Shown: positions 19,520-43,815 of the stretch, piece after piece
Layout: the number at the start of each line of letters is the position of its first letter
How positions within the stretch are numbered: the stretch's first letter is position 1
Source: Halorussus pelagicus
Lineage (GTDB): Archaea > Halobacteriota > Halobacteria > Halobacteriales > Haladaptataceae
Length of the DNA: 64,000 bases
Reading direction: 5' to 3'
Assembly (NCBI RefSeq): GCF_004087835.1
Contig: NZ_CP035119.1
Coordinates: forward strand, 2,852,001-2,916,000
Notes under the pieces: model-generated
Told to the model about the DNA's origin: nothing
Databases searched by the model: none
The model's input: the letters and a program-made list of their open reading frames with translations, nothing else
Made by a program: the position numbers and the translations under genes

Positions 19520-19542
19520 ATCAGTCGATCGGGGGTTCAAAT

Positions 19543-19555: not shown

Positions 19556-19647
19556 CTCCGTAAAAAACAATTTCGGAACTTTTTGCCGCTACTTACCCGA
19601 GGTAAACCCGGTAGCGACGGCTGTCGTCCAACGGGGGTGCCTCGGTA

Positions 19648-19914: not shown

Positions 19915-20339
19915 AGCGGACCGGTCTCGGTCACTTCGACGTTGCCGCGAAGACCGTCCTCCGAGAACGCACCGAGGACGACGAGGGCTATCTCATCTGT
20001 CCCGAGTGCGGAACGCCCGTCGGGAACTCCCTCGGAAGCCACGAGGTCGCCCAGCCCGACGTAGTTGACGACGACCTCGCCGACGCTATCGGCGACGTGC
20101 TGGTCACGCACGGCTGGGTGTGCGACCGGCACCCCGGCTACGAGGTCGTCATGCCGACGCCCGTCGGGTCCCTCTCGGTCGAGGAGGCCGTGAACTCCGG
20201 TTGGGTCGGCGTCCGCGTTCGTTTCGCCGACGAGTTCGTTCGGACTGTCGCCACGCCCGAGAAAGAGACTCGTCGAGGCGAGGTAGACGATGTGTCTACC
20301 GACGCTCGCGGCGAGACTGAGGAGGCTGGTTCCGCGTGA
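19911..20339 (+). CDS. Hypothetical zinc-knuckle protein
   Basis: A 142-aa protein with one CPECGTP knuckle near residue 30 and a later CDRHPGYE that could complete the metal site. I recognise no family. It overlaps both neighbours by four bases (ATGA with the gene before, GTGA with the gene after), so it is translationally coupled. The 19-base element palindrome at 20282-20300 lies inside its last codons, encoding EVDDVST, just ahead of the next start. Confidence 0.6.
   Translation: MKRTGLGHFDVAAKTVLRERTEDDEGYLICPECGTPVGNSLGSHEVAQPDVVDDDLADAIGDVLVTHGWVCDRHPGYEVVMPTPVGSLSVEEAVNSGWVGVRVRFADEFVRTVATPEKETRRGEVDDVSTDARGETEEAGSA
20282..20300. repeat. 19-base element palindrome, copy 1
   Basis: GGTAGAC-gatgt-GTCTACC: perfect 7-base arms with a 5-base spacer. 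It lies 36 bases before the GTG start of the 561-aa gene. The flank GACTCGTCGAG recurs in altered form at other copies. Confidence 0.75.
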
Positions 20340-22021
20340 GTCTCGACACGCCGTCGAGCGCGGGCGTCGTCTCGCCCGACCAGTACGTCTCGGATGTGAC
20401 CGACGCCGAGACCGACCGGTTCCCCGAACCGCGCGCCCACGGCGCGAGTATCCAGAACGTGCTGAACGACCTCGCGCCCTCCGACCGGGACAAGCGCGGT
20501 CTCGACCGCGGCACGCTCTACGACCACGCGGTCCACTACTGGCGCGAGAACGTCGAGGACCACGACCGCGAACCCTACGTCGCCGCCGAACCGTTCGACG
20601 CCGACTGGCTACCCGAGGACGGACGCTTCGCACTGGTCGTCAAGTCCTCCGGATGGAAGGCTGGCTACGGTCTCGGCGACGACTACAGCCAGTTCTACGA
20701 ACACCACGTCATGCTCCGGCGCATAGTCGAGACGAAGAACGGGACCAAACTCAAGAAGCCACCACTGGCGCTTCACGTCGAGGTCCAACCCCAGTTCCGA
20801 GACCTCGTGTACTCGGACGGGAACCCGCTGGAGTGTCCCCACGGCGAGGGCACCCGACTAAAGATTTGGACGACGTGGGCCGAACAGCCCGAGGACGCCG
20901 AGACCCGCGCCTACGACGCCCTACGCGCGGTCTACGGCGACGTGTTCGACGTAGACGACCAGAACCCGAACTCCCGGCGCGTCGCCAAAGCCGAGGCGCA
21001 CGTCCGATTCGCTCACGAGAAGATGGGCAACGTCGTGGAAGCGCTCGACCAGTCCCGTCAGTTGGTCGCCTACGGCGGCGAATCCGAGATTGAAGCGCAC
21101 CAGCGCCGCCAGCGCGAGGGCTACCTTGAGGCGTTGGTCGAGTCCGACCGCTGGGACCTCCTTGGGTTCCCCGACCAGCCGTTCAACACCGGGCTGAAGG
21201 TCTACCGCCGGAAGGACTGGCACACGCTCAGTCCCGAGAACCCAGCGTTTCACCCGAAGCTGGAGGCGTTCTTCGCTGGCGTCGAGCGCGGGGAACTCCC
21301 GCACGTCTCGGAGTGGGATAGCGTCATGGACCACCTGCGCACGATGTGCGCGACTCACGCGCGTTGGGCCGGGCTGGAACGGTCCGACCTCGTAGAGGAC
21401 GACTTCTTCGACGGCGCGCTCGCGCCCGAGTACGAGTTCGAGCGCCCGACCGGGCGCAAGCACATGCTTCGCCAGCGCTACGAGGAGGTCGCTACCGAGG
21501 TCTACCGCGAGGCGCTGAAACCGAACACCACGGCCGTCTACGACCTCATGAAGGTCGTCGCGGAACACCGCGGGGCGAACTACGACACGCTGGTCGAGGA
21601 GACCGGACTCGCTCGCTCGACTGTCCGGTACCACGTCGCCCGGCTGGAGGACGCCGACGTGTTCGTGAAAGTCGAGAAGAACCCGGTCCTCGTGGCGTTC
21701 ACCGCGCCGCTGGCCCGCGAAGAGGCCAGCGACGTGCTGGAGGAGGTCCACCTGGACGACACGCCCGAGGATCGCGCGGACCGCGCCGACGACCGGCGCG
21801 AGGCCCGCCACGAGCGCCAAGAGCGCCGTGATGACGACCTCGACCGCAAGACCGAGGAGGACGCCGACCCGGACGCCAGCGGCGAAGACGACCTCGGGTT
21901 CCGCTATCTCGCGCACGTTGAGGCGAGCGCCCACGACCTCGCGTTCCTGCGCGACCGCTCAGAACTGGGCGAGCGTGACGTGCGCGTTCGCGCCGACGAA
22001 CTCCCGCCGGACCTCCGGTAG
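20336..22021 (+). CDS. Large winged-helix protein, possible replication or master regulatory protein
   Basis: A 561-aa protein that starts at GTG, overlapping the stop of the previous gene. The middle is a large unassigned domain. At about residues 390-460 lies a winged helix (TAVYDLMKVVAEHRGANYDT, then LARSTVRYHVARLEDADV). The C-terminal 110 residues are highly charged (repeated DRADDRREARHERQERRDDD type) and end in a hydrophilic block. Proteins of this size with such a winged helix are frequent on haloarchaeal plasmids and proviruses next to the putative origin, which fits the palindrome-rich gap that follows. A DUF7845-type assignment is possible but was not checked. Confidence 0.6.
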   Translation: MSLDTPSSAGVVSPDQYVSDVTDAETDRFPEPRAHGASIQNVLNDLAPSDRDKRGLDRGTLYDHAVHYWRENVEDHDREPYVAAEPFDADWLPEDGRFALVVKSSGWKAGYGLGDDYSQFYEHHVMLRRIVETKNGTKLKKPPLALHVEVQPQFRDLVYSDGNPLECPHGEGTRLKIWTTWAEQPEDAETRAYDALRAVYGDVFDVDDQNPNSRRVAKAEAHVRFAHEKMGNVVEALDQSRQLVAYGGESEIEAHQRRQREGYLEALVESDRWDLLGFPDQPFNTGLKVYRRKDWHTLSPENPAFHPKLEAFFAGVERGELPHVSEWDSVMDHLRTMCATHARWAGLERSDLVEDDFFDGALAPEYEFERPTGRKHMLRQRYEEVATEVYREALKPNTTAVYDLMKVVAEHRGANYDTLVEETGLARSTVRYHVARLEDADVFVKVEKNPVLVAFTAPLAREEASDVLEEVHLDDTPEDRADRADDRREARHERQERRDDDLDRKTEEDADPDASGEDDLGFRYLAHVEASAHDLAFLRDRSELGERDVRVRADELPPDLR

Positions 22022-23156: not shown

Positions 23157-23879
23157 CTATTCGGGCAAGTCGAGCCAATCGCGCTCAAACTCTCCCCGGT
23201 ACTGTTTAAACGCGAGCGCGACGCCCACGGGCACGTAGAGGACCGAGAGGACCCACAGGACCAACGCCCCGAGAAGGCCGCCTATCGGCCACTGTCCGGC
23301 CGCCGCGAGGACCAGCGAGACCACGGTCCCCGCGAACCCCGACGCCGCGAGGAGTCGGTTCTGGCGGTCCTCGACCCAACCCAGCCACCGCGCGAACAGC
23401 GGTTCGGGCCGGAGTTCCGCCCGCGTCCACGACGCGAACCCGCCGACGTGCGGTGCGAGCGCGAACGCCCAGTCGGGCGGGTCCGCGTCCGGCGGCGCGG
23501 GAAAGCGCGTCCGCGGGTCGAGCGCCCACGCGACCGTGAGGACGAACGCCCACGCCCGGACCCACGCGCTCCAGCACGTCCGGACGCACTCGCGGGCCGC
23601 CGCATAATGCGCGTCGGCGCGGTCGCGCCAGTCCGCCCGTCCGTCCGGGTCCGGGTCCGCGGTCGCGTCACCGCGGGCGTCCGAGCCAGCGGGCGCGAGT
23701 TCGTCCGCGAGGGCCTTCGCCCGCGAGTGCGCGACCGCCAGTTCGTCCGCGAGGTCGGGCGCGTCCGGACGCTCGACTCGACGACCCGAGGTAGACGAAT
23801 CGCCTACCGAGTCGCTCTGGTCGTCTTCTTCGCCCACGTCGTTCAGCCAGTCCGCGAGGTCGCCGTCTTCGACCGTCAC
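23157..23879 (-). CDS. Membrane protein, last gene of the membrane/ATPase operon
   Basis: A 240-aa protein starting at GTG (23877-23879), overlapping the stop of the previous gene as GTGA. The first 95 residues are acidic and hydrophilic and contain the 19-base palindrome as DNA (23790-23808). Three or so hydrophobic spans follow: a Trp-rich one (WSAWVRAWAFVLTVAWAL), then FAGTVVSLVLAAAGQWPIGG and LLGALVLWVLSVLYVPVGVA. A short cytoplasmic end (FERDWLDLPE) closes it. No known family. It is likely an integral part of whatever complex the operon makes. Confidence 0.7.
   Translation of the reverse strand: MTVEDGDLADWLNDVGEEDDQSDSVGDSSTSGRRVERPDAPDLADELAVAHSRAKALADELAPAGSDARGDATADPDPDGRADWRDRADAHYAAARECVRTCWSAWVRAWAFVLTVAWALDPRTRFPAPPDADPPDWAFALAPHVGGFASWTRAELRPEPLFARWLGWVEDRQNRLLAASGFAGTVVSLVLAAAGQWPIGGLLGALVLWVLSVLYVPVGVALAFKQYRGEFERDWLDLPE
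23790..23808. repeat. 19-base element palindrome, copy 3
   Basis: GGTAGAC-gaatc-GCCTACC, one mismatch between arms. It lies inside the N-terminal codons of the 240-aa gene. The left flank CTCGACTCGACGACCCGA nearly repeats the flank of the copy at 31142. Confidence 0.7.
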
Positions 23880-24154
23880 GGAAGACCACCCCAGTCCAAG
23901 AGGGCCAGCCCCTCGCGTCCAAGGTCGAGGAGCGGTGTCGGGTCGAACGCGCCCACCGCGGCGAGAACTCCGAGGAGCATCACGAACAGCCCCAGCGTCC
24001 CGAGAAGCGACGCAACCGCCTCGGTCCGGCGAAGCCACCGCCCCGCCAGAATCAGCGCCAGCCACGCCGACGCTTCGAGGAACCGCGCCTCGACCAGTCG
24101 AACCACCGGGTCGAGGACGCCGCCGAGACCGACGCCGAGTTCCGTCCCGACCAT
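23876..24154 (-). CDS. Small two-helix membrane protein of the operon
   Basis: A 92-aa protein with hydrophobic spans at about residues 30-40 (LEASAWLALILAGRWL) and 48-70 (ASLLGTLGLFVMLLGVLAAV). The ATG (24152-24154) lies one base below the stop codon of the large exported protein, so translation is coupled. Its stop overlaps the next GTG. Its likely role is a small structural or assembly component. No family recognised. Confidence 0.65.
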   Translation of the reverse strand: MVGTELGVGLGGVLDPVVRLVEARFLEASAWLALILAGRWLRRTEAVASLLGTLGLFVMLLGVLAAVGAFDPTPLLDLGREGLALLDWGGLP

Positions 24155-24155
24155 C

Positions 24156-26786
24156 TCACTTCCCTCCTCGGATTCGCAGAATCGTGCGGTCCGGCGAGGT
24201 GAACTTCCGGACCAGCCGGAAGACGCCCCACAGTCCGACGAGTCCGCCAGCCAGCCACAGGAACCGCGAGACGCCGCCGAGACCCGCCGCCAGTTCTTCG
24301 ACCACACGGGCGAACGCCCCCGAGAGAACCCGCGGCGCGAGGCTTTCGAGCGCGACCACGAACACCAACCCGAGGACGCCGCCGCTCGCCCATATCGGCA
24401 CGCCGCGCCGACGCGCGAGCAGGCCGACCCCGAGGATAACGACCGCGCCAGCGCCCAGAACGAGGAGCGGGTTCGCCAGCGGGTCACTCGCCACCGTCTT
24501 CGCGGTCTCCAGCGGCAGGGTTCCGCCGCCGCCGTCGTCCGAGGACGACCCGCCGGAATCCGCAACCGCGATTCTCAGAAGGTTCGACTCGTCTGAGTCG
24601 AGAGAGAACGCGACTGGCGACCCCGACACGCTCGGGTCTTCGACGCGGCCGTTCGACTCGGACACGAGGTCGTAGGACGCGCCGGATTCGCCGCCGTAGT
24701 AGTCGAGACCGACCGAATCGCCCGCGACCGTACCTTGTCTAATTCGGAACCTCGGTTCGTCCGGGTCGGCGACAGAAACCACCACGTCGTTTTGCGGGTC
24801 CGCCCGGAGGTCGAGCGTCCGGACGGTCGCACTCCCGCCCTCGGGCGCGTTCGGCACGCGCACGTACTGAGACGCCCCGCCGTCCGCGATACGGGCGCTC
24901 GCGCTCGCGTTCTGATACGACGGGTCCGCGAGGTAGTGAACCCACTCGCTCGACGCCGTACCTGACACGTCGATTCGGAACTCCTCGCCGCGCGAGACCA
25001 CTTCGAACGTCGTGTTCAGCGCATTGCCCTCAGTCGTCGGGTCCGTGACCCGAATCGCCCCGTTTCGAACTCGCACCTTGCTCCCGTCGGCGACAACCCT
25101 TGTCGTCGTGCCGGGGGAAAGGTCGCCAAGACCGACCTTGAGCGTGGTCGTGTTGCTCTTGAAGTGGCTCCACGTCGGCGCGGTCTTGGTCCCGTTAATA
25201 TAGACCGTGAGGTCGCGGTTCGAAACTACGTTCCCCGCGAACGGAATTTCGAGTGTCGCGTTCTCCGACATATCTCCCCACGTTTTCGATACGTTGTAGC
25301 GTTCGGACCACGATTCCCCCTCGTATTTGACTGATTGGTCGTCGCGGGCACTATGCGAGTAGTCGAGACCAACACTCCCGGCCGCTGTCGAGACCGTGAC
25401 GGTGTTCTCGCCCGACTGAAGCCATGCGGAGTCCGTAGAGAGACTAACCGTCTCACCAACGGATAGACGGCCCGGATAGCTTGTCTCGTTGCCATTGACC
25501 TCAACCGTTGGAGATTCAGTCTCAATCCGCTCCTCTGCACTCAGCGACCAATCCAGCGACCCATGCGAACCGGAAGTGTCGAGCGAGGACACGCCTGCCG
25601 AGAGGTCCACCGCGCGGGTCTTTGTCTCGCCGCCGGAGAAATCTCCGAGTGAGGCCGTCGTTCCGTCGGAAAACGCCACATCGACGTTTTTCGGAGCCGG
25701 GCCGCGAATCTCGATGTCTTGCACCCAGATGTCCGACCCGCTTTGAGTCCCGGAGAGGACGAACTGAACGTCCTCACCTGTCGGTACGTCCGATAGCGAG
25801 GACGAGAACGTCGTTGCACCCATGCCGTCGAAATTCACCGACCCGAGATAGTACCAGTTGCCGTTAGTTACAGCGTAGCCCTCGAAGTAGGAACTTCCGT
25901 CCGAGATGTGGGATTCGACCTGAATCGACGCTCGCGCTAGATTCGACGGCGGCGAGGAAAACGTTGCAACCGTCGTGTTCCCGCCCTCGTTGATCGCTTT
26001 TTGCCCGTCGTCGCCCCAGTTGCTCCGCTGGATTGGCTGTTGTCCGGTCACGGTTAGCTCCGGTTCTCCTCCAGCGGGACCGCTCGGCGCGAGGTTTCCG
26101 CCGACTGAGATTGACGCCGAGTCACCCGGCGAAAGTGAACCTGATTCGTTCGACCATGCGGTCGTCTCGACGCCAGTCAGATTAATATCGAAATCGCTGG
26201 CGGAGTCGAGTGACTGTAACTGATATTGGTAGCTTGACCCGTCAGTCGCCGGATTTCCCGAAAGCGAGACTTCGCCAGTGAACGTGATAACGTTGTCCGA
26301 GAATTTCGGTATCTCGACCACGATGTAGCCGGAACTCGTCGTCACCGGCTCGCTCCAGCGAGACCCGTCCTCGTGAACGCCCTCGATTTGGTCCGGCAGA
26401 TAACCAAACTCGTCACGGACCTCCGAGGCGTTAATTGCGATTCTCCGTCCATCATGCACCGAGTCGTCACGAATCACGATTGCGAGATTGCCGACGCCTT
26501 CCGCGACCGTTGCGTCCGGTCCGAGTGTTTGTTCGGCGTCCTCGGGCGAGGTGAGGATGAACTCGGTTGTCGCGGCGTGGTCGGACGCCAGCACGTCGCC
26601 GCCGGTCATGTTCGACGCGCGGAAGGGAAACGAATCGCTCGCTGGCGTTCCTTGCTCGACGTTCTGGTCCGGAATCGCCACGAATCCCGGCGGCATGTCC
26701 GGCGTCGCGGACGCCGCCGCGGTCCCCGCGAGGAGGTGCGGTGCGACCGCCGACGCGAGCAGAAGACCAACCAGCACCAGCGCCAA
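24156..26786 (-). CDS. Large exported, membrane-anchored surface protein (spike-like)
   Basis: An 876-aa secreted protein. The N-terminus is a Sec-type signal (ALVLVGLLLASAVAPHLLAG) and a long Ser/Thr/Gly-rich, beta-strand-like ectodomain follows, with many N-x-S/T sites (for example NMTGG, NESG, NATLE, NGTKT). At about residues 750-870 lie two to three hydrophobic spans (NPLLVLGAGAVVILGVGLLA, then ASGGVLGLVFVVALESLA) and a short basic tail. This layout suits an envelope spike or cell-surface adhesin. The start is uncertain: the frame opens with a TTG at 26784-26786, but the basic signal-peptide residues (SDGRNRR) lie just upstream of it with no ATG or GTG in frame. Confidence 0.7.
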   Translation of the reverse strand: MALVLVGLLLASAVAPHLLAGTAAASATPDMPPGFVAIPDQNVEQGTPASDSFPFRASNMTGGDVLASDHAATTEFILTSPEDAEQTLGPDATVAEGVGNLAIVIRDDSVHDGRRIAINASEVRDEFGYLPDQIEGVHEDGSRWSEPVTTSSGYIVVEIPKFSDNVITFTGEVSLSGNPATDGSSYQYQLQSLDSASDFDINLTGVETTAWSNESGSLSPGDSASISVGGNLAPSGPAGGEPELTVTGQQPIQRSNWGDDGQKAINEGGNTTVATFSSPPSNLARASIQVESHISDGSSYFEGYAVTNGNWYYLGSVNFDGMGATTFSSSLSDVPTGEDVQFVLSGTQSGSDIWVQDIEIRGPAPKNVDVAFSDGTTASLGDFSGGETKTRAVDLSAGVSSLDTSGSHGSLDWSLSAEERIETESPTVEVNGNETSYPGRLSVGETVSLSTDSAWLQSGENTVTVSTAAGSVGLDYSHSARDDQSVKYEGESWSERYNVSKTWGDMSENATLEIPFAGNVVSNRDLTVYINGTKTAPTWSHFKSNTTTLKVGLGDLSPGTTTRVVADGSKVRVRNGAIRVTDPTTEGNALNTTFEVVSRGEEFRIDVSGTASSEWVHYLADPSYQNASASARIADGGASQYVRVPNAPEGGSATVRTLDLRADPQNDVVVSVADPDEPRFRIRQGTVAGDSVGLDYYGGESGASYDLVSESNGRVEDPSVSGSPVAFSLDSDESNLLRIAVADSGGSSSDDGGGGTLPLETAKTVASDPLANPLLVLGAGAVVILGVGLLARRRGVPIWASGGVLGLVFVVALESLAPRVLSGAFARVVEELAAGLGGVSRFLWLAGGLVGLWGVFRLVRKFTSPDRTILRIRGGK

Positions 26787-26900
26787 AACGCGTCGGTTTC
26801 GCCCGTCAGATACCCCCCTCGGGGGTTTGCTCCTATAGGACTCTAAGTACGCGCGCGCATCCGTTCACTCGCGCGACAATTCCGCGCGACCGGGCGCGGC

Positions 26901-28058
26901 TCATAGCGAGACCACCCCCTCCGACTCGGCGGAGTCCCCCGAGTCCGCTGGGTCCGAGGGTACTTTCGGCGTCAGATGGACTCGTAGTTCCTCCTCGGTG
27001 GGTTTCGGGATGTTCGGCCACGCGAACGCCGCGAAGTTCGTCTCGGTCCAGAAGAGACCGCGACCCGTCGGCATATCGCTGGTGAGGTCCTTGTACATCG
27101 GCACGCGATTGACGCCGACCACCTGCGAGGCGCGCGTCGGATTCGCTCGACCGTTCAGCGTCACCCGCCAGCGGTGCTTTCGTTTCACCTTCTCGTGGGC
27201 GTCCTCCGCGTTCTGGCCCGCGTGGTAGACGCTGAGCTTGTACTTCCGCGAGTCGATGAACAGGTCGCGGTAGAGTTCGACCTTCTGGTAGCTGGCGAAC
27301 TGGTCCTTGCTCGCCGACTGGGGAATCATGTCGCCGATCTCGTCGGCGAGGAGCGCCGTCCAGATGAACGAGCCGTGTTCGACCCGTGCGAGGAGAAACC
27401 CGACCCACCAGTGGTTCACGGGGTCGTCCGGACTGAACTCCAACCCGTCCTTGCGCTTCGGCGAGCGCTCGTAGAGGTCCTGACACCCCGTCATTTGCGG
27501 GTCCGGGTAGACCACATGAAACTTTCCCGACTCTAAGTGATTCTGGCACAGGTCCATCGGGTCGTCGTAGTAGACGACCTCGCGTACCACGTCCTCCAGT
27601 CGGACCGCCCGGCGGTAGGCGTCGCCCTCGCTGGTCGAGACGACCATCGCCTCGACCTCGCAGGAACTCGGGAGACAGACCTTCGCCCACGGCGCGAAGC
27701 TAATCCACTCACTCCGGGACTCGCTCGCCCGCCAGACGACCGCCTCGGACGGGAACCGACCCACCGAGTCCATGAGGTGCGCGCCGATAGTCTTCAAGAA
27801 CGTCGATTTGCCCGCGCCCATCGGCCCCTCTATCAGGGCGTCCGTGCCGCCGCCCGGCGAGAACGCGCTGTTGTCGGCCGCCTTGCACAGACACCCCGGA
27901 ATCACCGACGGGTAGTCGAACTGTTCCACGTCGAGTTCGGGAATGCCGAACTTGCGTCTGATAGACTGTGCGTCGGTGTGCCGCGAGGTTCCGAGGTAGG
28001 TCCCGGTGTTCTCTCGCGGGTCGAGGTCCGTCAGCGTCTCTACTGTGTTCCATGTCAT
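26901..28058 (-). CDS. P-loop ATPase of the membrane operon
   Basis: A 385-aa cytoplasmic ATPase. Walker A is EGPMGAGKSTFLK at about residue 85; Walker B is probably FIWTALLADEIGDM near 245. No membrane span. The general layout recalls FtsK/HerA- and VirB4-type motor ATPases or the ATPases of archaeal pleomorphic viruses, but it is short and I cannot choose. The ATG at 28056-28058 overlaps the previous stop (ATGA). It is the only energy-providing enzyme in the operon, so it probably drives DNA transfer, packaging or assembly. A 23-codon frame overlaps its stop (26833-26904) ahead of the spike-like gene. Confidence 0.75.
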   Translation of the reverse strand: MTWNTVETLTDLDPRENTGTYLGTSRHTDAQSIRRKFGIPELDVEQFDYPSVIPGCLCKAADNSAFSPGGGTDALIEGPMGAGKSTFLKTIGAHLMDSVGRFPSEAVVWRASESRSEWISFAPWAKVCLPSSCEVEAMVVSTSEGDAYRRAVRLEDVVREVVYYDDPMDLCQNHLESGKFHVVYPDPQMTGCQDLYERSPKRKDGLEFSPDDPVNHWWVGFLLARVEHGSFIWTALLADEIGDMIPQSASKDQFASYQKVELYRDLFIDSRKYKLSVYHAGQNAEDAHEKVKRKHRWRVTLNGRANPTRASQVVGVNRVPMYKDLTSDMPTGRGLFWTETNFAAFAWPNIPKPTEEELRVHLTPKVPSDPADSGDSAESEGVVSL

Positions 28059-28978
28059 AGGTTCCGAATCGGTAGCTCCGAGTTCTCGCGTTCCGCCAGT
28101 TCGCCCGAGCGGTCCGCGACCTCGTGGGCCGCGACCGCGAACGCGGGCAGAACCTCTTTCGCCGCGAACGACTCCCGGAAGAACCACGAGCGGGCGCGCT
28201 CGCCCTCGCGGTCGAGAAGCATCTCGCGGGTGTGACTCTCCGTGTAGAGGCGCGTGGCGAGATCGTCCGAGACTTCGGCGAAGGTCGCTTCCGTGACCTG
28301 TTGCACCCACGCGAGCATCTGGTCCTCGGACGCGAACCCGTCGAGGACCTGCCGGAGCGCCCAGTCTTGGCGCTGGGCGAGTTCCGCCAGCGCGGGCCGC
28401 ATTCCCGGCGCATCTTGCTCCTCGGGGTCCGGCGGTCCCTCACGGGTCTCGCCGTCGGCGTCCGGGTTCTCGACGTACTCGGTCGCGGACCAGCGGAACC
28501 CGTGATGAGACTCTACGAATGCCGGTAGCAGGTCCACCGCGGCGACTCCGCGCCGCGCGGTCGCCGCGGTCGCCGGGTCGAGAACGTCGTCCGGGTCGTC
28601 CGCCCACGCGAACCGACGCTCGGACACGAGGAGGACCGAGAGGTCGAGGCGCGAGAACGCCCGCTCGACCATCCAGTCCCCGGACAAGCGCCCGAGCGTG
28701 TGAATCGCGGCGTCTTGGCACCAGAGGAGGAATGTCCGTCGATTCTCGAAACCGTCGATGAATCGCCTGAGCAGTTCTAACTGGTCGCCGGTCAACTTCT
28801 GAAGCGCGGGCCGAAGTTGCGGCGTCTCGGGAAGACCGTCGAGGAGGTCGCGCACCTCGCCCTCGCCGAACCCGAGGTCCGCCAGCACGTCGCCCTCCTC
28901 GACGCGCACGGTCGGGCCGCCGACGTCGTCAGTAGACGCTTCGTCTACCTCGGTTCGTCGAGTCGCGTCAGTCGTCAC
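28055..28978 (-). CDS. Soluble helical protein with two tandem repeats
   Basis: A 307-aa hydrophilic protein starting at GTG (28976-28978) and overlapping the previous gene by 11 bases. Two related blocks of about 100 residues lie in tandem. The first runs RPALQKLTGDQLELLRRFID ... LLPAFVESHH; the second runs RPALAELAQRQDWALRQVLD ... VLPAFAVAAHE. Shared features are RPAL, DGF, a W near the middle and PAF before H. It is probably a helical adaptor acting with the ATPase whose start it overlaps. No named family recognised. The 19-base palindrome lies in its first codons. Confidence 0.68.
   Translation of the reverse strand: MTTDATRRTEVDEASTDDVGGPTVRVEEGDVLADLGFGEGEVRDLLDGLPETPQLRPALQKLTGDQLELLRRFIDGFENRRTFLLWCQDAAIHTLGRLSGDWMVERAFSRLDLSVLLVSERRFAWADDPDDVLDPATAATARRGVAAVDLLPAFVESHHGFRWSATEYVENPDADGETREGPPDPEEQDAPGMRPALAELAQRQDWALRQVLDGFASEDQMLAWVQQVTEATFAEVSDDLATRLYTESHTREMLLDREGERARSWFFRESFAAKEVLPAFAVAAHEVADRSGELAERENSELPIRNL
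28931..28949. repeat. 19-base element palindrome, copy 4
   Basis: AGTAGAC-gcttc-GTCTACC, one arm mismatch, within codons 10-16 of the 307-aa gene. The bases that follow, CTCGGTTCGTCGAGTCGCG, are the reverse complement of the left flank of the copy at 31142, so the shared unit is about 40 bases and is inverted here. Confidence 0.75.
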
Positions 28979-30698
28979 CCGCGACCACCTCCGAGTGGTC
29001 CGACTCGCTTCCCGAGTTCGGCGGCGCGAGTTCGTCCGTAATCTTCTCGAACGTCGAGCGGTCGCGCTCCTCTTGTTGGCGCACGCGCTCGGCGCGCTTG
29101 TCCGCCTTCTCGGTTAGCGCCTCGTCCTTCCAGTACGCGCGGTCCGCAACGTCCTCGAACTCCCGTGCGTGCGTGATTAGGTTCTCGACCAGCGCCCCGT
29201 ACTGGGCGGGCGCGAGGTTCGGGTCCGACTTCCCGACCGTCGGTTTCAGCACGGTCGCCAGCGCCGCGAGGACGCCGAACGCGATACCGAACCCCTCGTT
29301 GAACAGCAGTCCGCCGACGTAGTACGCCAGCCCGACCAGCAGGACCCCGCCGACAAGCGGCCCCCACGCGACCGAGGGAATCGGCCAGCGCCCCGCGACC
29401 AGTTCGTCCTCGTCGGGCCAGTCGAGCAAGTCCGGCGTCGAGAGGGTTAGCCCCGCCTTCTCGTAGTCGATAGGCGCGTCCGCCGTCGGGTCCGAGAGGA
29501 ACACTTCGTCGTACTCGTCATCGTTTTCGCGGCCGACCAGCCGAGTCCCGAGCGTCGCTTCGTCCACGTCCACCGTCGGCGCGGCGTTGTGGAACGGCCA
29601 GATAGCCACCAGCCACGGTATCCAGCCCTCTCGCCGAATCTTCCGACCCTCCGAGGTTTGCACCACGTTGTAGGCCCGCGTGCGGACGTGCCAGCGCCCC
29701 GTGCCGTCGTCCTTGATGCTGGCACTGTCCTCGCCGCTGGTCAACTGGAGGAACAGCACCTCCTCGGGGTGCTCTCCGAACATGAACAGCACTGTGACCC
29801 CGAGGAGCGCCCCGCCAGCGATACCGACCGACCACGGCGCGGTCGCCAGCAACTCCAACAGGCCGTTGTACCACACGAACACCGCGAGGAACGTTGCGAC
29901 GGCCAGCGCGAACACGACCTCCAGCGCCGAGACCATCGGCCCGTTGCCCACCTTGTCGAGGAACCGCCGGTCGAGCGCGATTATCCCGACCGACGTGAGC
30001 ATGCACGGCGCGAACATCCACACCGCGGCGAAGCCCGCGATACCGCCCGCTGACCGCATGGGGACCGACTGGGCCGCCTCTGAGACCGCGTAGCGGAACC
30101 GCCAGCTAACTTCGTCTCGGTGGCCCTCCATCCACACCGTCACGTACTTCGCGTCGCCGTAGTGGGCCGGAAGGTCGAGTTTTGCCGACCCGTAGTCGCC
30201 GCCCGTGAGCGTCGCCGAGACCGTCGTGTGCGTCGCGTTCGTCACGACGCGCTCGCGCACGGTCCGGTTGTTCTCGGTCGTTCGCTCGACCGTCTCGAAA
30301 TCCCACAGGACGACGTGGAACGTCGCGTCCATGTCCTCGGAGTCCCACCCGCGGAACGACCCGACGTAAATCGAATCACGCTGAACCGTCGTGCGAGGTT
30401 CGATGTACTGGCGGTCCTCCGGCGACGCCATGAACTCGACCGGAACGTGGCGAATCCAGAACGACCCAGCGTTGCCGTAGGGCCGAATCGCCTTGCTCGG
30501 TGCGTTCGACTTTACCGTGCCGTAGTCCGCGAGGTCGTCGTAGGTCCACGTCCCGTTCTCGGTACCCGTCGCGGTGCCCGACTGGTTCGCTCCGGCCCCG
30601 TCGTCTTGGGCGAGCGCGACGCCCCCGACGGCCGGGACCGCCAGCGAGAGGACCACGAACACCGCGAACGCGGCGCGTAGGCGTCTGTTCCCCGTCAT
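28968..30698 (-). CDS. Exported multi-span membrane protein of the operon
   Basis: A 576-aa protein. The ATG at 30696-30698 overlaps the previous stop as ATGA and opens a clear signal peptide (LRAAFAVFVVLSLAVPAVGG, then VALAQ). An ectodomain of about 150 residues follows. Three spans lie at about 200-310 (including FAAVWMFAPCMLTSVGIIAL), then a large cytoplasmic part with YNVVQTSEGRKIRREGWIPW, then two more spans near 440-490, and a charged tail ending SESDHSEVVAGDD. Frames extending upstream of the ATG are out-of-place Arg-rich translation. This is the central polytopic protein of the operon and could form a pore or scaffold. No family recognised. Confidence 0.72.
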   Translation of the reverse strand: MTGNRRLRAAFAVFVVLSLAVPAVGGVALAQDDGAGANQSGTATGTENGTWTYDDLADYGTVKSNAPSKAIRPYGNAGSFWIRHVPVEFMASPEDRQYIEPRTTVQRDSIYVGSFRGWDSEDMDATFHVVLWDFETVERTTENNRTVRERVVTNATHTTVSATLTGGDYGSAKLDLPAHYGDAKYVTVWMEGHRDEVSWRFRYAVSEAAQSVPMRSAGGIAGFAAVWMFAPCMLTSVGIIALDRRFLDKVGNGPMVSALEVVFALAVATFLAVFVWYNGLLELLATAPWSVGIAGGALLGVTVLFMFGEHPEEVLFLQLTSGEDSASIKDDGTGRWHVRTRAYNVVQTSEGRKIRREGWIPWLVAIWPFHNAAPTVDVDEATLGTRLVGRENDDEYDEVFLSDPTADAPIDYEKAGLTLSTPDLLDWPDEDELVAGRWPIPSVAWGPLVGGVLLVGLAYYVGGLLFNEGFGIAFGVLAALATVLKPTVGKSDPNLAPAQYGALVENLITHAREFEDVADRAYWKDEALTEKADKRAERVRQQEERDRSTFEKITDELAPPNSGSESDHSEVVAGDD

Positions 30699-31288
30699 TT
30701 GTCGTTCACCGAGAGGATGACGAGACTGAGGACGCCCAGCACGAGCAGAATCTCGCTCGGACCCAGCGCGGTCACGCGGTCGAGGACCGCCCACGAACCA
30801 CCAACCGCACCGACCTTTGCCAGAATCTCGTGGTGCGAGATTAGCACGTCGCCCAGCATGACGCCGACCGATTCGAGTCCTTCCAGTGTCCCGAGGAACG
30901 CCCCGAGGACGCCAGCGCCGACGAACCCGGCACCCGTGACCGCCCGCCGGACGTTCCGCTCGCCGCGGTCCGCCGCCCCCGAGACCGACCGCTCGCGGAT
31001 AGCCCACCACAGGCCCGCGAGGAGCAACAGCGGAAGCACGACCCATGTGAACCACCACGGAATCGTCGGCACCCACGCCGAGAGGTCGAAGTTCTCACCG
31101 ACCGCGAGGACCGGCCCGAGACCCGCGACTCGACGAACCGAGGTAGACGACGTGTCTACCGAGCCTCTCCAGTCGGCGCTGCATGAGGTACACGGTTCGT
31201 CTACCTCGGCGATTTCGCCCGCTGTTCTGTCCTTGGTTCTATTCCTCCCGTCGTCCGCGTTCAGTTCTAATGCGTTTGATTTGAGCAT
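30695..31288 (-). CDS. Membrane protein of the operon with palindrome-bearing N-terminus
   Basis: A 197-aa protein. The first 60 residues are polar and include a CTSC pair. A Trp-rich span follows (VPTIPWWFTWVVLPLLLLAG), then a basic loop (RERSVSGAADRGERNVRR), then two or three more spans ending SEILLVLGVLSLVILSVNDK. The ATG at 31286-31288 is clear, and the stop overlaps the next start. Two copies of the 19-base palindrome lie 45 bases apart in its N-terminal codons. No known family. Confidence 0.68.
   Translation of the reverse strand: MLKSNALELNADDGRNRTKDRTAGEIAEVDEPCTSCSADWRGSVDTSSTSVRRVAGLGPVLAVGENFDLSAWVPTIPWWFTWVVLPLLLLAGLWWAIRERSVSGAADRGERNVRRAVTGAGFVGAGVLGAFLGTLEGLESVGVMLGDVLISHHEILAKVGAVGGSWAVLDRVTALGPSEILLVLGVLSLVILSVNDK
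31142..31160. repeat. 19-base element palindrome, copy 5
   Basis: GGTAGAC-gacgt-GTCTACC, perfect arms. The left flank CGCGACTCGACGAACCGA is shared, inverted, with copy 4. Confidence 0.78.
31187..31205. repeat. 19-base element palindrome, copy 6
   Basis: GGTACAC-ggttc-GTCTACC, one arm mismatch, placed exactly 45 bases from copy 5. The same 45-base spacing separates two copies at 36605 and 36650. Confidence 0.7.
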
Positions 31289-31311
31289 GGTTGAAAGTCG
31301 AATGGTTGGGT

Positions 31312-31581
31312 TTAGTCGAACGTCCGTCGAGCGATTCGCATGACCGTCACAAGGACGAACACGACCGAGAGCGCCAGAATCACCTGATTGAGAAGCGACT
31401 GGTCCAACCAGCCGACGTTGGGCGCGATTCGATGCTGGAGGGTCGTCGCCAGCGGCAAGAGCAAGTCGATGTTGACCATCACCCAGTCCGCGAGCGCGAA
31501 CACGCCCGCGCCGTTGAGGACGTAGTGGCCGACCACCGACCCGACGCCGCCCAGCGCCGCCAGCGGTTTCAGACGATCCAT
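31312..31581 (-). CDS. Small two-to-three-span membrane protein of the operon
   Basis: An 89-aa protein starting MDRLKPLAALGGVGSVVGHY at the ATG 31579-31581, 13 bases inside the previous gene. Hydrophobic spans are at about 8-25, 30-45 and 65-83 (NQVILALSVVFVLVTVMRIA), with a short basic end. The longer frame upstream is Arg/Gly-rich noise. It is probably a structural membrane component. No family recognised. Confidence 0.62.
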   Translation of the reverse strand: MDRLKPLAALGGVGSVVGHYVLNGAGVFALADWVMVNIDLLLPLATTLQHRIAPNVGWLDQSLLNQVILALSVVFVLVTVMRIARRTFD

Positions 31582-31967
31582 ATCCGAACCCTCCTCACGA
31601 GTTCGACGGTCCCGCGCGCCAACGCCGCCGCCAGCGCCGCGTAGACCGCGAACAACACCGCCGACACCAGCGGCCCGGAGAGTCCCGCCGACGCTCCGAG
31701 TTCGATGAGGTCGCTGTTCAGCGTCCGGAATGCGCCTTCGATTGCTTGGCCCGCCGCCTCGCCTGCCCCCAGCACGTCGCCGCCCGCCGCGCCGAATGCC
31801 GATTGGACTATCGACCACTGTTTGACGACGATTCCGACCAGTTCCTCACCGAGGTCGAGGACGCCGCCGACCAGCCAGCGCGCGACGACCTCGATAATCT
31901 TGTCCTCGGGACAGAATACCCAGTCCGGAAGCCAGCCGGGGCGCGCCGCGGGGCCACAGTCAGGCAA
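31569..31967 (-). CDS. Membrane protein of the operon, amphipathic N-terminal half
   Basis: A 132-aa protein starting MPDCGPAARPGWLPDWVFCP, overlapping the previous gene by eight bases and the next by 13. Amphipathic helices fill the first 85 residues (IIEVVARWLVGGVLDLGEEL), followed by one strong span (PLVSAVLFAVYAALAAALA) and a basic C-terminus (RRVRIWIV). Overlap at both ends shows coupling in the operon. No known family. Confidence 0.63.
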   Translation of the reverse strand: MPDCGPAARPGWLPDWVFCPEDKIIEVVARWLVGGVLDLGEELVGIVVKQWSIVQSAFGAAGGDVLGAGEAAGQAIEGAFRTLNSDLIELGASAGLSGPLVSAVLFAVYAALAAALARGTVELVRRVRIWIV

Positions 31968-32307
31968 AGCGTCGCACCCCCTGAAGGACCAGCCACATAA
32001 CGAGGAGGACCACTACGACCGTCACGAACCACGCAACGAGTGCAGGCAGTGTCGAGCGCGCCGCCGCCCAGTACGACCACCACGCTCGGGAGATTGCCGT
32101 CGCGCCGCTGGTGAACAACCCGCCGAGGAGTCCGACCCCGAACGTCCGAATCCCGTCGAGGATCGTCTGAACCCAGTCCCCGAACCCGTCTATAGACCCG
32201 ATATATCCGCGGTACCACGCGAACACCGGCCCGCCGACCACGACGCTGGCGAGCGTGCCCCACTTGATACGTCGGCCCTCTACGAACGTCTGCGGGTAGC
32301 CTCGCAT
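31960..32307 (-). CDS. Small membrane protein of the operon
   Basis: A 115-aa protein starting MRGYPQTFVEGRRIKWGTLA. Hydrophobic spans are at about 18-35, 50-68 (FGVGLLGGLFTSGATAIS) and a long one at 88-110 (ALVAWFVTVVVVLLVMWLVL). Aromatic residues cluster at the membrane edges (AWWSYWAAA). It lies six bases after the preceding gene and overlaps the following one. Unknown family; probably part of the same complex as its neighbours. Confidence 0.63.
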   Translation of the reverse strand: MRGYPQTFVEGRRIKWGTLASVVVGGPVFAWYRGYIGSIDGFGDWVQTILDGIRTFGVGLLGGLFTSGATAISRAWWSYWAAARSTLPALVAWFVTVVVVLLVMWLVLQGVRRFA

Positions 32308-32313
32308 GAGTCG

Positions 32314-32919
32314 TTACCTGCGTCCTGTGAATAGTCGGAGCGGCGAGAGTTCTATGCGCCTGAGGAACATGGTGAACACCCAGAGGCCAGCAAGCACTGA
32401 CAGAACGCCCAACGCAAATGTACCCGGTCCAAGCTGGGAACACTGTCCTGTCGTCAGACTTTCTGCCGAGTTTTCTGCCCCTGCAACGACTATTTGAATC
32501 GGCGACGTGACCACCGCGTCAACCAGTTCACCGAGTCCACTGGAGAACGCACGGAAGGGCGCGAGAAAGACCATTCCTGTCGAATCAATCGCCCCGATGA
32601 GGGTGTCGAACAGTTCGTAGAGAACGCCGCCAATACCGTAATTTTTCACGAGACCTGCGAGACCCGCCGTCGAGACGATTCCTGCCGCCGTTTTCATCGT
32701 CCGAGCCGAGTCCGCTTGCGCTCGCTGGTCCCCGAGGCGACGGCGTAGCGACGGTGTGTCCGAGTCCGTGACGTAAGACGTGGCCACGGCGAGGCTAAAC
32801 CACCCGACCGGCATCCACACCGCCACGTCGCCGAACAGCAACTTGCTCGCCAGCGTCACGACGACCGTCGTGAACAAGCCGACGAACAGGTGTTTCACCC
32901 ATTTTTGTTTGTCTGTCAT
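32314..32919 (-). CDS. Membrane protein of the operon
   Basis: A 201-aa protein. The ATG at 32917-32919 gives MTDKQKWVKHLFVGLFTTVV; a TTG five codons earlier is possible but less likely. Two spans open the protein (LFTTVVVTLASKLLFG and MPVGWFSLAVATSYV). A basic loop, a helical middle region and a last span near the end (TFALGVLSVLAGLWVFTMFL) follow, with a basic tail (RLFTGRR). The 15-base gap to the upstream stop suggests co-transcription. No known family. Confidence 0.65.
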   Translation of the reverse strand: MTDKQKWVKHLFVGLFTTVVVTLASKLLFGDVAVWMPVGWFSLAVATSYVTDSDTPSLRRRLGDQRAQADSARTMKTAAGIVSTAGLAGLVKNYGIGGVLYELFDTLIGAIDSTGMVFLAPFRAFSSGLGELVDAVVTSPIQIVVAGAENSAESLTTGQCSQLGPGTFALGVLSVLAGLWVFTMFLRRIELSPLRLFTGRR

Positions 32920-32934
32920 GTCGGGACTCTCCAA

Positions 32935-34545
32935 TTAGACCAGACCCTTCGCCCACGCGGTCACGAAGCCCAGCACGCCCGTCACGACCGCGGCGATAGC
33001 GCCCAGCGGCGTCTCACCGGACTGAGCGTTCGGAACTTTCCCGCCGCCGCCCGAATCCTCGACTTCCGAGCGGTCGGACTCCGTGAGCAGAATCTTCTCA
33101 CTGGCCCCGTAGACGACTCCCGAGGACGCCGGGTCCTTCAGCGCGACCGTCGTACCCTCACTGTCGAACTTCGACGTGTGACTCGCCCAACTGCTATCGT
33201 CTATGTCTTCGAACGCCACGTCCTCGACGCCGGTAGCGAGTTCGACCGATTCGTAGCGTTCCGCGGGAACCGTCACCTCCTGCTCGAAGGACGGGTTTTG
33301 CCAGTTCAGGTCGTACGCCTGCGGTAGACGGACCTTCCCGCGAGTTTCGAGGACCGAGTTGTAGTTCACGCGGTCGGGGGTTTCGAGGAACCGGTACTCG
33401 TAGTCGAGGTCCGCGTCCTCCATCGTGACCCGGACCGGGTACGAGAGGTCGAAGAACGTCGCGTCGTCCTCGGTGAACGCCTCGCTGAACGTGTCGAGCG
33501 AGGTCGCCGAGACCTCGCCACTGGGTTCGTAGCGCTTCGTCCGTTCTTCGTCGTCCGTGCCTTCGTTCTTCAGGTACGACCCGAAGGTCCACCGACCCAT
33601 CTTCTCGGCGTTCAGGGCCGTGAGTTGCACCGTCGCGTTCGCGTCCGAGACCCGAATCTCGACCTCGGCAATGTCGTCAAACGACCCGTCGCCGTTCGCC
33701 ACGGTCGAGAGGTCCCCGAACCGCTGTTGGGCCGTCTGACCGTACCCCGTCGCCGTCGCTACCACGTTCGACTGAGTGCCGTCGAGCGACGACCCGATTT
33801 TCAGCACCTTCTCGTCACCGTCCGAGTCCCGGAATGCGACCTCGACCAGCGCGCCCGCGTCGAGCGACACCGTGTTCGCCACAAGCTGGGCGAATCGTTT
33901 GGCCGCCGAGTCCGAGATAGTCGCTCCGAACGACCCGAGGTCGAACGTCGCGCTCACCGTCTCGCCGTCGGCGACCGAGGAGGTCGAGACCTCCAGCGCC
34001 GGAGACACGTCGAGGTCCGCGTTCGACACCGAGATAGTTCCGTTCGTCGCGCCCGAGGTACTCCAGTGAGTCGCCGCGAGCGCCGTCACGTCGGTGTCCT
34101 TGTCGCCGTCGCCGTCTTCGTCGTACTGGGTCGAGCGCGGGAACGCGGACCCGTCGGGGAACTCTATCTTGTCGGCGCGGAACGACACGATGTTCTCCGA
34201 GTCCTCGCGGTCCACCGTTCCGCCAAGCGTCGATTTCTCGCCGTTGTCGTTCTCGTAGGCGAGGAGCGCGGCGTCGTCCTCGCCCCACGTCGCGTGGTGC
34301 CGGTCCTTCTCCAGCGTGGCCACGAAGTATGGGTTCGGCACGTACGCCGAGTCCCAGTTCAGGCCGGACCGACCGCTCGACCAGTCCGGTTCCGAGGTCG
34401 TCGTGTCCTGCGCCGCCGCGGTGCCCGCGGTCGCCGCGGTCGCCGCCGCGCCAGCCGCACTAGCCATGAACGCGCGTCGCGTCGTACTCGCGCACGTCTG
34501 ACAGTCCTGTTCGTTGCCGTCGATTTCGATAGTTTTCGAGGTCAT
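32935..34545 (-). CDS. Tat-exported, C-terminally anchored surface protein
   Basis: A 536-aa secreted protein. Residues 23-50 are a Tat signal (STTRRAFMASAAGAAATAAT) after a polar leader with two Cys. The ectodomain is acidic and beta-rich, with repeated SVADG/ADLD-like loops, and a Gly-rich linker (DSGGGGKVPNAQSGE) leads to a single C-terminal span (PLGAIAAVVTGVLGFVTAWA). Tat export fits a protein that folds before secretion, as for many haloarchaeal surface proteins. It could be the second virion- or vesicle-type coat protein beside the 876-aa one, or a pseudopilin-independent adhesin. No family recognised. Confidence 0.72.
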   Translation of the reverse strand: MTSKTIEIDGNEQDCQTCASTTRRAFMASAAGAAATAATAGTAAAQDTTTSEPDWSSGRSGLNWDSAYVPNPYFVATLEKDRHHATWGEDDAALLAYENDNGEKSTLGGTVDREDSENIVSFRADKIEFPDGSAFPRSTQYDEDGDGDKDTDVTALAATHWSTSGATNGTISVSNADLDVSPALEVSTSSVADGETVSATFDLGSFGATISDSAAKRFAQLVANTVSLDAGALVEVAFRDSDGDEKVLKIGSSLDGTQSNVVATATGYGQTAQQRFGDLSTVANGDGSFDDIAEVEIRVSDANATVQLTALNAEKMGRWTFGSYLKNEGTDDEERTKRYEPSGEVSATSLDTFSEAFTEDDATFFDLSYPVRVTMEDADLDYEYRFLETPDRVNYNSVLETRGKVRLPQAYDLNWQNPSFEQEVTVPAERYESVELATGVEDVAFEDIDDSSWASHTSKFDSEGTTVALKDPASSGVVYGASEKILLTESDRSEVEDSGGGGKVPNAQSGETPLGAIAAVVTGVLGFVTAWAKGLV

Positions 34546-34582
34546 GAGTTCGTTCGATTTCGGTTGTTCTGAAGCCTGTGCG

Positions 34583-34792
34583 TCACTTTTCTCGGAACAC
34601 TACGTACGGAAATCCGAGCACCCCGAACGCCGCGGCACCGAGGGCGAGCGGTTCCAGCGCCTGCGCTTCCGGCACGATTCCGGATAGCAGGTTGACCAGC
34701 GCCGACCACCCAACCCCAGCGCCGAGTCCTCCGACGAGCATGAGCGGCATGCCCGCGAACGCAAAGAGGACGACTTTCTTCCAGCGTTTCAT
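34583..34792 (-). CDS. Small two-span membrane protein, near the operon start
   Basis: A 69-aa protein starting MKRWKKVVLFAFAGMPLMLV, with a second span near residues 46-63 (LEPLALGAAAFGVLGFPYVV). Positive residues at the N-terminus suggest a cytoplasmic start. The ATG (34790-34792) overlaps the stop of a 40-codon gene as ATGA. It precedes the Tat-exported protein by 37 bases. Confidence 0.62.
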   Translation of the reverse strand: MKRWKKVVLFAFAGMPLMLVGGLGAGVGWSALVNLLSGIVPEAQALEPLALGAAAFGVLGFPYVVFREK

Positions 34793-34911
34793 GAGGGCCG
34801 CTCCTCGTCGTCCTCGCGGCTACTCTCGTAGTGTTTCCAGTCTGTCCAACTCGGTTCGTCTTCCTCCGAAAAGGAGGAGTGTGGGCGTTCGTGCCCGTCT
34901 TCCCGTGTCAT
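34789..34911 (-). CDS. Very small acidic protein, first gene of the membrane operon
   Basis: A 40-aa soluble protein starting MTREDGHERPHSSFSEEDEP and ending DDEERPS. It has the ATGA overlap with the next gene that is characteristic of this operon, which is the main support for its being real. About 55 bases upstream on its strand lies a CTATAG box (near 34968), and a CGACCG-rich imperfect inverted repeat lies between (34921-34942). Function unknown. Confidence 0.5.
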   Translation of the reverse strand: MTREDGHERPHSSFSEEDEPSWTDWKHYESSREDDEERPS

Positions 34912-35072
34912 GGGAGTATCACGACCGGAGCGACCGGTCGTCACACCCGCGTTGAACGACGCTGGCTATAGATTGTAGAAAAATTGGGAGCTGCCCCAAC
35001 GGCGATACCCAGTTACTTTCGCTACCCTATACATTTATTAGAGAAACGGTTCGCAGGAAGTACGGAGTAGCC

Positions 35073-37921: not shown

Positions 37922-39007
37922 CTAATCAGTCGCTTGAAGTCTCTTTTGAGGTCCCTTGTTACTGGCGTGTTGAACCAGAGACTCTCCGATTGCCTTTGCC
38001 AGACGAACTGGAACAGCATTACCGATTAGTCTCCCCATCGATTGTACACTGAGGTCTTCTTCCGATTCAACAAACGCATAGTCTTTCGGGAATGTCTGAA
38101 GTATCGCTCCCTCTCGGACCGAAATTGCCCGATCTTCCTCAGGATGACCAAATCTACCACTCCCATAATTGAAGAACCTCGTAGTAATTGTTGGGGCAGG
38201 TTCCTCCCACTGCATTCGTCCATACGAGGCAGTATACTTTCGACCGCTGTCCTTCTTGTGACAGGCTAGTTTTAGCTCATCGGCCCAGTCTTCCCAAGTT
38301 CCACCGGGCTCGGAGTTCTGAATGCGCCTAATGTTTTTATCTGAAAGGTCACGAGAAGTATGAAGGAAATCCTCCTCCGATGATTCACCTGCTTCAAGTT
38401 CTGCTAAATCGTACTTCTCAAATTCGGACTTCACTGTTGCTTCTTCTGGGTCATGAGTAGGGTCTTGTAGTTCTATATGCCCATATTTGGAAGCTAAGAG
38501 AACGAGCCGTTTTCTCTCTTGAGGAACTCCGTACTTAGGACACTCCACCACTTTGTCCCAAATAGTATAGCCCAAATCCTCTAATCGAGATTGAAAATCC
38601 TCATAAGGCTCATGTTCTTGAACCTGTGGGACGTTCTCCATCGTTACTAAATCTGGTTCTACATCAGCAATCAGTTGGCCGAAATCCTCCATGAGTCCCC
38701 ATTTCTCATGACTATCTGCCTGCTTCTCGTTTCCATTACTCATTTTCGAGTATGGTTGGCACGGTGCGCAACCAGCTATCAGAGTATGATCTGCTTCATC
38801 GGATGAAAGATACGATTCGATATCCTCGGGAGATACATCCTCGGAAATATCGCTTTCTATGAACTCCGCATCTGTACTGTTTTTCTCATAAGGATGTCTA
38901 CATTCTGATTCGATATCGAAGCCCGCGCGAACATCGATTCCCGCCTTTTGAAGGCCGTAGGTAAGACCACCTGCCCCGCAGAATAGATCGACAGCACGTA
39001 TGCTCAT
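37922..39007 (-). CDS. DNA (cytosine-5)-methyltransferase (Dcm / DrmMII-like)
   Basis: A 361-aa 5mC methyltransferase. Motif I is VDLFCGAGGLTYGLQKAG, the catalytic Cys lies in GCAPCQPYS, ENVPQVQEHE is the conserved ENV, and PQERKRLVLLAS and GNAVPVRLAKAIG close the fold. AT-rich composition matches the block up to 51.3 kb. It could pair with the HNH nuclease upstream as a restriction-modification system. It could equally be the methylase (DrmMII) of the DISARM-like operon; class 2 DISARM uses such an enzyme. Sequence does not decide. Confidence 0.9.
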   Translation of the reverse strand: MSIRAVDLFCGAGGLTYGLQKAGIDVRAGFDIESECRHPYEKNSTDAEFIESDISEDVSPEDIESYLSSDEADHTLIAGCAPCQPYSKMSNGNEKQADSHEKWGLMEDFGQLIADVEPDLVTMENVPQVQEHEPYEDFQSRLEDLGYTIWDKVVECPKYGVPQERKRLVLLASKYGHIELQDPTHDPEEATVKSEFEKYDLAELEAGESSEEDFLHTSRDLSDKNIRRIQNSEPGGTWEDWADELKLACHKKDSGRKYTASYGRMQWEEPAPTITTRFFNYGSGRFGHPEEDRAISVREGAILQTFPKDYAFVESEEDLSVQSMGRLIGNAVPVRLAKAIGESLVQHASNKGPQKRLQATD

Positions 39008-43813: not shown

Positions 43814-43815
43814 TG

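Follow-up and report, generated by a model that had tools for sequence, protein, structure and literature searches.

What does a closely packed run of membrane-protein genes around a single P-loop ATPase build in the haloarchaeon Halorussus pelagicus? The run lies in a window of 64,000 nucleotides, the whole stretch of DNA analysed (bases 2,852,001–2,916,000 of a 3.02-Mb contig), and occupies the minus strand from 34,944 down to 23,157. An earlier note had described it as a tight fourteen-gene operon that could build a vesicle, a virion or a DNA-transfer channel. The operon is real and its ORFs lie where they had been placed, but they number 13. Genes g01–g11 are packed by overlaps or gaps of less than 40 nt (g01/g02 −4, g02/g03 37, g03/g04 0, g04/g05 6, g05/g06 −8, g06/g07 −4, g07/g08 23, g08/g09 −4, g09/g10 −11 and g10/g11 −4, negative values being overlaps), and breaks of 114 nt (g11/g12) and 90 nt (g12/g13) flank g12. 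Start codons are uncertain for g01, g07, g08, g12 and g13, and transmembrane (TM) segments and signals were assigned by hydropathy, not by a trained TM predictor. The genes are as follows.

34789–34944, minus: g01, a weakly supported 51-aa ORF
34583–34792, minus: g02, a 69-aa membrane protein by hydropathy
32935–34545, minus: g03, a 536-aa Tat-exported, C-terminally anchored surface protein with a CBM11-like beta-sandwich in a confident model
32314–32934, minus: g04, a 206-aa membrane protein, position conserved
31960–32307, minus: g05, a 115-aa membrane protein, position conserved
31569–31967, minus: g06, a 132-aa membrane protein, position conserved
31312–31581, minus: g07, a membrane protein of ~89 aa with two TM segments
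30695–31072, minus: g08, a small membrane protein whose ORF is open to 31288; the start is placed near 31072 because relatives and upstream palindromes favour it
28968–30698, minus: g09, 576 aa, a signal peptide and about five more TM segments
28055–28978, minus: g10, a soluble protein with two homologous halves
26901–28058, minus: g11, an ATPase of the FtsK/HerA superfamily
24156–26786, minus: g12, an 876-aa exported, C-terminally anchored protein with conserved ends and a variable middle
23157–24065, minus: g13, a 302-aa ORF with two TM segments, found in the window element only

Hydropathy places TM segments in seven small operon proteins, one fewer than the eight that had been claimed. It finds six hydrophobic segments in g09, in agreement with the polytopic protein with a signal peptide described earlier, and none in g10 or g11. 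The repeat-bearing soluble protein is g10, an internal duplication with halves 28% identical over 110 aa (E=8e-9). Two large exported and anchored proteins, one of Tat type (g03) and one of Sec type (g12), are likewise recognised by hydropathy and motif.

The operon was said to lack named relatives, and our searches bear this out. Nothing rose above curated cut-offs in Pfam or NCBIfam, PDB sequence searches gave essentially no matches, and the single PHROGs match was an unnamed family, for the ATPase; g04–g10 received no assignment. Homology of most operon genes to type IV secretion-type systems or to known virus families was not found in the scans.

The Walker A motif GPMGAGKST of the ATPase was read correctly from the start, and the Walker residues are invariant across 26 aligned members (G83 and K84 in Walker A, D239/E240 in Walker B). 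The structural comparison that had been proposed for g11 was made with a model of mean pLDDT 86. Its best fold matches are HerA and the STIV2 packaging NTPase B204, a HerA/DNA-packaging fold shared at a sequence identity of only ~10–13%, followed by the coupling protein TcpA and other FtsK-HerA superfamily members. As modelled, with Walker A, Walker B and the core fold present, g11 is a member of this superfamily. A HerA partner nuclease was not found in the operon. None of the 13 archaeal virus records tested contains the PHROG family of g11, and phrog_22963 gave no hit in SH1 or SNJ1. Haloarcula pNG100-type plasmids carry an ATPase homologous to g11 at ~27–29% identity, and pNG100 has no homologue of g03, g09 or g10. 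Short ATPase homologues (282–317 aa, E about 1e-24 to 1e-28) also occur in three non-halobacterial genomes of the phylum (G567, G492 and G527). Two of these loci lie amid many small membrane proteins, and no other operon gene was matched at any of the three.

The operon is one part of a larger integrated element that reaches well beyond its coordinates. In empty-site relatives of the same genus, host synteny is kept to window 19,558–19,618 and resumes from 56,445–56,718. On the left, the junction falls at the 3′ end of an intron-containing tRNA-Trp gene, and a 13-bp repeat of this end recurs at 54,981; the element is therefore delimited to window 19,543–54,993 (35.45 kb). An end near 37.6 kb, taken from palindromes and a GC shift, was dropped once attR was found.

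19376–19556, plus: host tRNA-Trp(CCA) gene with a 106-nt intron, its 3′ end the integration site (ARAGORN with introns)
19543–19555, plus: attL, 13 bp, CCCTCCGACCCCA
54981–54993, plus: attR, 13 bp, CCCTCCGACCCCA, just past the tyrosine integrase gene

A default tRNA search misses this tRNA-Trp gene, so elements in it show no tRNA anchor in routine annotation. Eight further elements have att repeats of 13–16 bp at tRNA ends. The gene occupied is tRNA-Trp in genomes G012, G080 and G139, tRNA-Pro in G172 and G385 and tRNA-Met in G322, with less certain sites at tRNA-Ala (G280) and tRNA-Cys (G289), where the element boundaries are provisional. G147 has an element at the same tRNA-Trp, and its far end was not found. 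The tRNA contexts were joined from adjacent stretches, with a possible one-base offset at the seams. The nine delimited elements span 22.8–36.4 kb.

Two other features of the window element deserve mention. A 17-bp palindrome, GTAGACGAATCGTCTAC, occurs with up to two mismatches in eight copies within 16.3 kb of the element (window 20283, 22086, 23791, 28932, 31143, 31188, 36571 and 36606), and the rest of the 3.49-Mb genome holds only two more, chance-like matches. Several copies are found immediately before the starts of genes (rep, g08, g10 and a gene at 36545) and so look like operators, putatively of an element-encoded regulator. In the relatives, neither this palindrome nor convincing element-wide palindromes of their own were found. 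The second feature is a low-GC stretch of cargo with DISARM-like genes.

37922–51312: low-GC cargo, including a C5 methyltransferase (DrmMII model)
39127–40005: HNH-type nuclease
41654–43813 and 49144–51312: cargo genes of unknown kind
43816–45666: DrmB-like gene
45666–49160: DrmA-like gene

Just outside the element, at 57742–60897, lies an ORF that we take to be a LanM-like lanthipeptide synthetase; the genome holds three further copies of it.

The two ends of the element carry an integration and replication module of the type known from the virus SNJ2.

53847–54884, plus: tyrosine integrase of the SNJ2 family, 36.7% identical to Int-SNJ2
54913–54993, plus: 5′ part of a 57-aa bridging ORF, completed only by joining attR to attL (3′ part 19556–19648)
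19648–19914, plus: 88-aa CxxC protein, next after the bridging ORF in the circularised operon
19911–20339, plus: 142-aa protein of PHROG 21250 with a CxxC motif, upstream of rep
20336–22021, plus: DUF7845 and winged-helix protein, a Rep-Arvir rolling-circle initiator, with KVY at residues 288–290

Across the elements, integrases are 32–61% identical to Int-SNJ2. The initiator matches PF25227 (E=9.7e-13) along with helix-turn-helix families, and its profile matches betapleolipovirus Reps at 100% probability (E=3.7e-66). Its KVY, a candidate for the catalytic tyrosine motif, was aligned by eye with KHYY of HRPV-3. A recent study characterised proteins of the DUF7845 family as Rep-Arvir rolling-circle endonucleases (PMC13107129). 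Joining attR to attL in silico yields the 57-aa ORF, which starts just past the integrase, spans attP, and overlaps with its stop the start of the CxxC gene (TAATG). An attP-spanning ORF overlapping the CxxC gene by a few nucleotides is found in the window, G172, G139 and G322, at different tRNA genes, and bridging ORFs occur in G012 and G080 as well. This arrangement is known from pleolipoproviruses (PMC7911831), and for SNJ2 excision was shown experimentally to restore the replication operon (PMC13107129). By analogy, we infer the same excision and operon restoration for the window element. Excision, rolling-circle replication and tRNA targeting are thus predicted on strong homology.

The earlier note had proposed a search of haloarchaeal genomes for the same gene order, and this returned the module across families. 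Of the 391 Halobacteria genomes, 72 have the ATPase, as do 25 of 86 genera. Among 31 loci retrieved together with their flanks, the surface protein lies upstream of the ATPase in 28, mostly in the order g03-g04-g05-g06-(g07/g08)-g09-g10-g11-g12, and the three ATPase-only loci lie on Haloarcula plasmids or plasmid-sized contigs. A second set of 37 loci, from genomes partly shared with the first, shows mostly the same order where the contig is long enough. In a few loci g12 is relocated between g08 and g09, and in several of those fetched it was undetected; g03 was undetected in Halorubrum lipolyticum, Halorubrum sodomense and Halorubrum halophilum, where the remaining module is present. All nine delimited elements share g03, g09, g10, g11 and g12, the integrase is common to eight of them, and the remaining genes vary. 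Horizontal movement of the element is clear from three observations: the ATPases closest to g11 (58–60% identity) come from other families, the copy in G147, a genome of the same genus, is only 35% identical, and Halobaculum litoreum (G385) holds two closely similar element copies (L035 and L037), one intact and one decayed by frameshifts in g09, g10, g11 and g12.

The module also turned up in two further settings. On the 163-kb Halosegnis marinus plasmid NZ_CP119803 (L004) it is complete, beside an MCM gene and near a type B DNA polymerase, and on the same plasmid the ATPase and surface protein occur a second time. A contig labelled Rhizobium sp. S152 (L071) carries a complete module, 58% identical at the ATPase, most likely through haloarchaeal contamination of that assembly. 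Among the 2.9 million contigs of IMG/VR, searched with one protein and one profile, no relative was found, so the patterns used give no sign of free particles. A phage collection queried with two ATPases and the surface protein gave no match. Targeted literature searches returned no paper on this element family, and descriptions outside their reach are possible.

Of the two large surface proteins, g03 has a Tat-type RR motif at its N-terminus and, by hydropathy, a C-terminal anchor; among its orthologues Tat and Sec signals are used interchangeably. Over ~160–200 columns, its model (mean pLDDT 85.6, residues ~50–490 above 80) matches carbohydrate-binding modules of family 11, a phage tailspike and the HFTV1 turret. 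The second, g12, has an N-terminal hydrophobic signal of Sec type and two C-terminal segments by hydropathy, and its middle part takes up insertions of up to ~200 alignment columns. Individual relatives bear beta-propeller, PKD or carbohydrate-binding (CBM-type) domains there. Conserved ends around a variable middle with exchangeable domains are the pattern expected of host-recognition proteins, and g12 is probably a receptor-binding or adhesion protein.

The combination of a packaging-type ATPase, many membrane proteins and anchored surface proteins whose recognition domains can be swapped suggests particle formation, and its main members are universal in the family. Judged from sequence and models, the operon probably serves a temperate integrative element as its particle module and would yield a virion or plasmid vesicle that is enveloped by a membrane and probably non-lytic. 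The conserved module and gene order, the att repeats, the SNJ2-like integrase and Rep, the attP-spanning ORF, the ATPase fold, the surface fold, the domain exchange in g12, the Sec/Tat exchange among g03 orthologues and the horizontal spread all support this reading. As to the three products first considered for the operon, an enveloped particle is favoured over a channel; the mobile character anticipated for the locus holds, and what moves is the 35.45-kb element, with SNJ2-like integration and replication genes.

In such a cycle the integrase would excise the element as a circle, and the joining of attR to attL would recreate an operon of integrase, bridging ORF, CxxC gene and Rep, as in SNJ2. 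This operon would start rolling-circle replication, with the membrane operon expressed afterwards. g03 and g12, exported via Tat or Sec, would remain membrane-anchored and act at the surface in host recognition, while g09 and the small membrane proteins would mould or scaffold part of the cell membrane and g10 would serve as an internal assembly or adaptor protein. The HerA-type ATPase may then drive circular DNA into the budding particle, which would deliver the element to a new cell for integration in a tRNA gene.

Several observations count against a particle. The element has no recognisable capsid or membrane-fusion protein, and beyond the weak ATPase signal the operon lacks homology to any isolated virus. 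A fixed capsid could hardly tolerate the size range of the elements, although a vesicle might. Finally, a HerA-like ATPase with a polytopic and several small membrane proteins also fits a DNA channel.

Contact-dependent DNA transfer is the main rival, possible but fairly unlikely. Here the HerA/TcpA-like ATPase would pump element DNA through a pore of g09 and the small membrane proteins; g03 and g12 would be the mating adhesins, and the Rep-Arvir protein the relaxase. The TcpA match, the presence of the polytopic and small membrane proteins in a single operon, the suitability of CBM-like and beta-propeller domains for adhesion and the occurrence of Rep-Arvir proteins on integrative and conjugative elements too (PMC13107129) all agree with it. 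However, there is a single ATPase, the genes scanned gave no match to VirB4, VirB6, a pilin or a relaxase, and the element has the design of an SNJ2 provirus.

A second alternative, improbable in our judgement, is a very divergent pleolipovirus in which g03-g09-g10-g11 correspond to VP4-ORF6-ORF7-ATPase. SNJ2 and the temperate betapleolipoviruses share with the element the integrase family, the Rep-Arvir initiator, integration at tRNA 3′ ends, the attP-bridging ORF, the CxxC gene and the integrase-to-Rep operon (PMC7911831, PMC13107129). The relative order of a surface protein, two proteins and an ATPase is also the same. The pleolipovirus virion module comprises a V-shaped fusogen, VP3, ORF6, ORF7 and an NTPase (PMC10919331, PMC10599561). 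In profile comparisons with this block, the ATPase reached 87% probability over 71 columns and g09/ORF6 46%, both borderline; g10/ORF7 reached 0.1%, VP3 stayed below 1% throughout, and the spike profile gave 16.7% over 21 columns. The V-shaped VP4-like spike is the hallmark of Pleolipoviridae (PMC10919331), and g03 does not fit it: the CBM-like beta-sandwich predicted for g03 is a different fold, with no pleolipovirus spike among its best 50 matches in the PDB or in the viral library BFVD. Apart from the weak ATPase and g09/ORF6 signals, the operon proteins are non-homologous to those of SNJ2 and the betapleolipoviruses; g10 has no TM segment, and Pleolipoviridae genomes measure 7–17 kb (19.5 kb in the pleolipovirus-affiliated Harhisp1), smaller than these elements. 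Membership in the family was set aside on the missing VP3, the missing V-shaped fusogen fold and the larger genomes. Direct homology to HRPV-1, HRPV-3, His1, His2, SH1 and SNJ1 was rejected bar weak ATPase similarity (4.8% and 19.6% for the SH1 and SNJ1 ATPases). SH1 and SNJ1 stand for the Sphaerolipoviridae/Simuloviridae, which are marked by a packaging ATPase and a pair of single-jelly-roll capsid proteins.

We consider a spindle-shaped virus, with a capsid of small two-helix membrane proteins (g07 or g04–g06), very unlikely. LSV-48N (PP151251), a lemon-shaped temperate Haloferax virus of similar size (24.9 kb), has an integrase 41% identical and large exported proteins, and small two-TM proteins are present in the operon. 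Nonetheless, no structural protein of LSV-48N or His1 was matched, and LSV-48N lacks this ATPase family and the gene order. As the family of the element it was rejected, the integrase alone being shared.

A similarly slim chance attaches to kinship with pR1SE-type plasmid-vesicle elements (apHPVs). Each has a large protein in which beta-propeller domains are exchangeable, along with an ATPase model resembling HerA and STIV2 B204 (PMC10818511), transfer in membrane vesicles would be common to both (as proposed here for our element), and the Halosegnis module lies on a plasmid beside MCM, as in many apHPVs. The S8 subtilisin-like protease seen there (apHPV ORF7) has no peptidase counterpart among the element proteins scanned with Pfam, and the core layout differs, as judged by comparison with the pR1SE description. 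No operon family was matched in 50 kb of pHALXA03, a possible apHPV proxy. Halfvol2, an induced 12.3-kb Haloferax volcanii provirus with ten TM proteins, is alike as an enveloped-looking novel provirus with an attP-bridging ORF, at about half the size (PMC7911831); at its published coordinates, none of the 15 Haloferax genomes searched, among which strain DS2 was not recognised, gave a strong ATPase hit. A host surface or secretion complex carried as cargo with no role in transfer would suit the exported surface proteins and the fact that no particles are known, and is the least credible reading since five operon proteins are universal in the nine delimited elements while other genes vary.

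Returning to the enveloped particle, we tentatively suggest, at a little under even confidence, that the elements represent proviruses of enveloped archaeal viruses that form a new family or higher taxon. Their entire virion and entry machinery would be unrelated to that of described viruses, and only the SNJ2-type module would have been exchanged with pleolipoviruses. They would occupy tRNA genes in about one in seven haloarchaeal species, an estimate scaled from 72/391 by the whole-module share of loci and by weak hits, not a direct count, and would have been missed by virus catalogues.

Many haloarchaeal genomes carry a conserved module of membrane proteins, surface proteins and an ATPase that has no characterised relative, and the phage and viral-contig collections searched do not contain it. 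The DISARM-like set in the window copy makes the element a possible vehicle for defence genes. Cultured hosts exist (among them Halobaculum litoreum, Haloferax gibbonsii and Haloarcula vallismortis), so the question is directly testable. If particles are made, archaeal viruses or virus-like vesicles of wide occurrence have gone unnoticed as a group, and the integration and replication genes that this group has exchanged with pleolipoviruses would make a clear example of modular evolution between plasmids and viruses.
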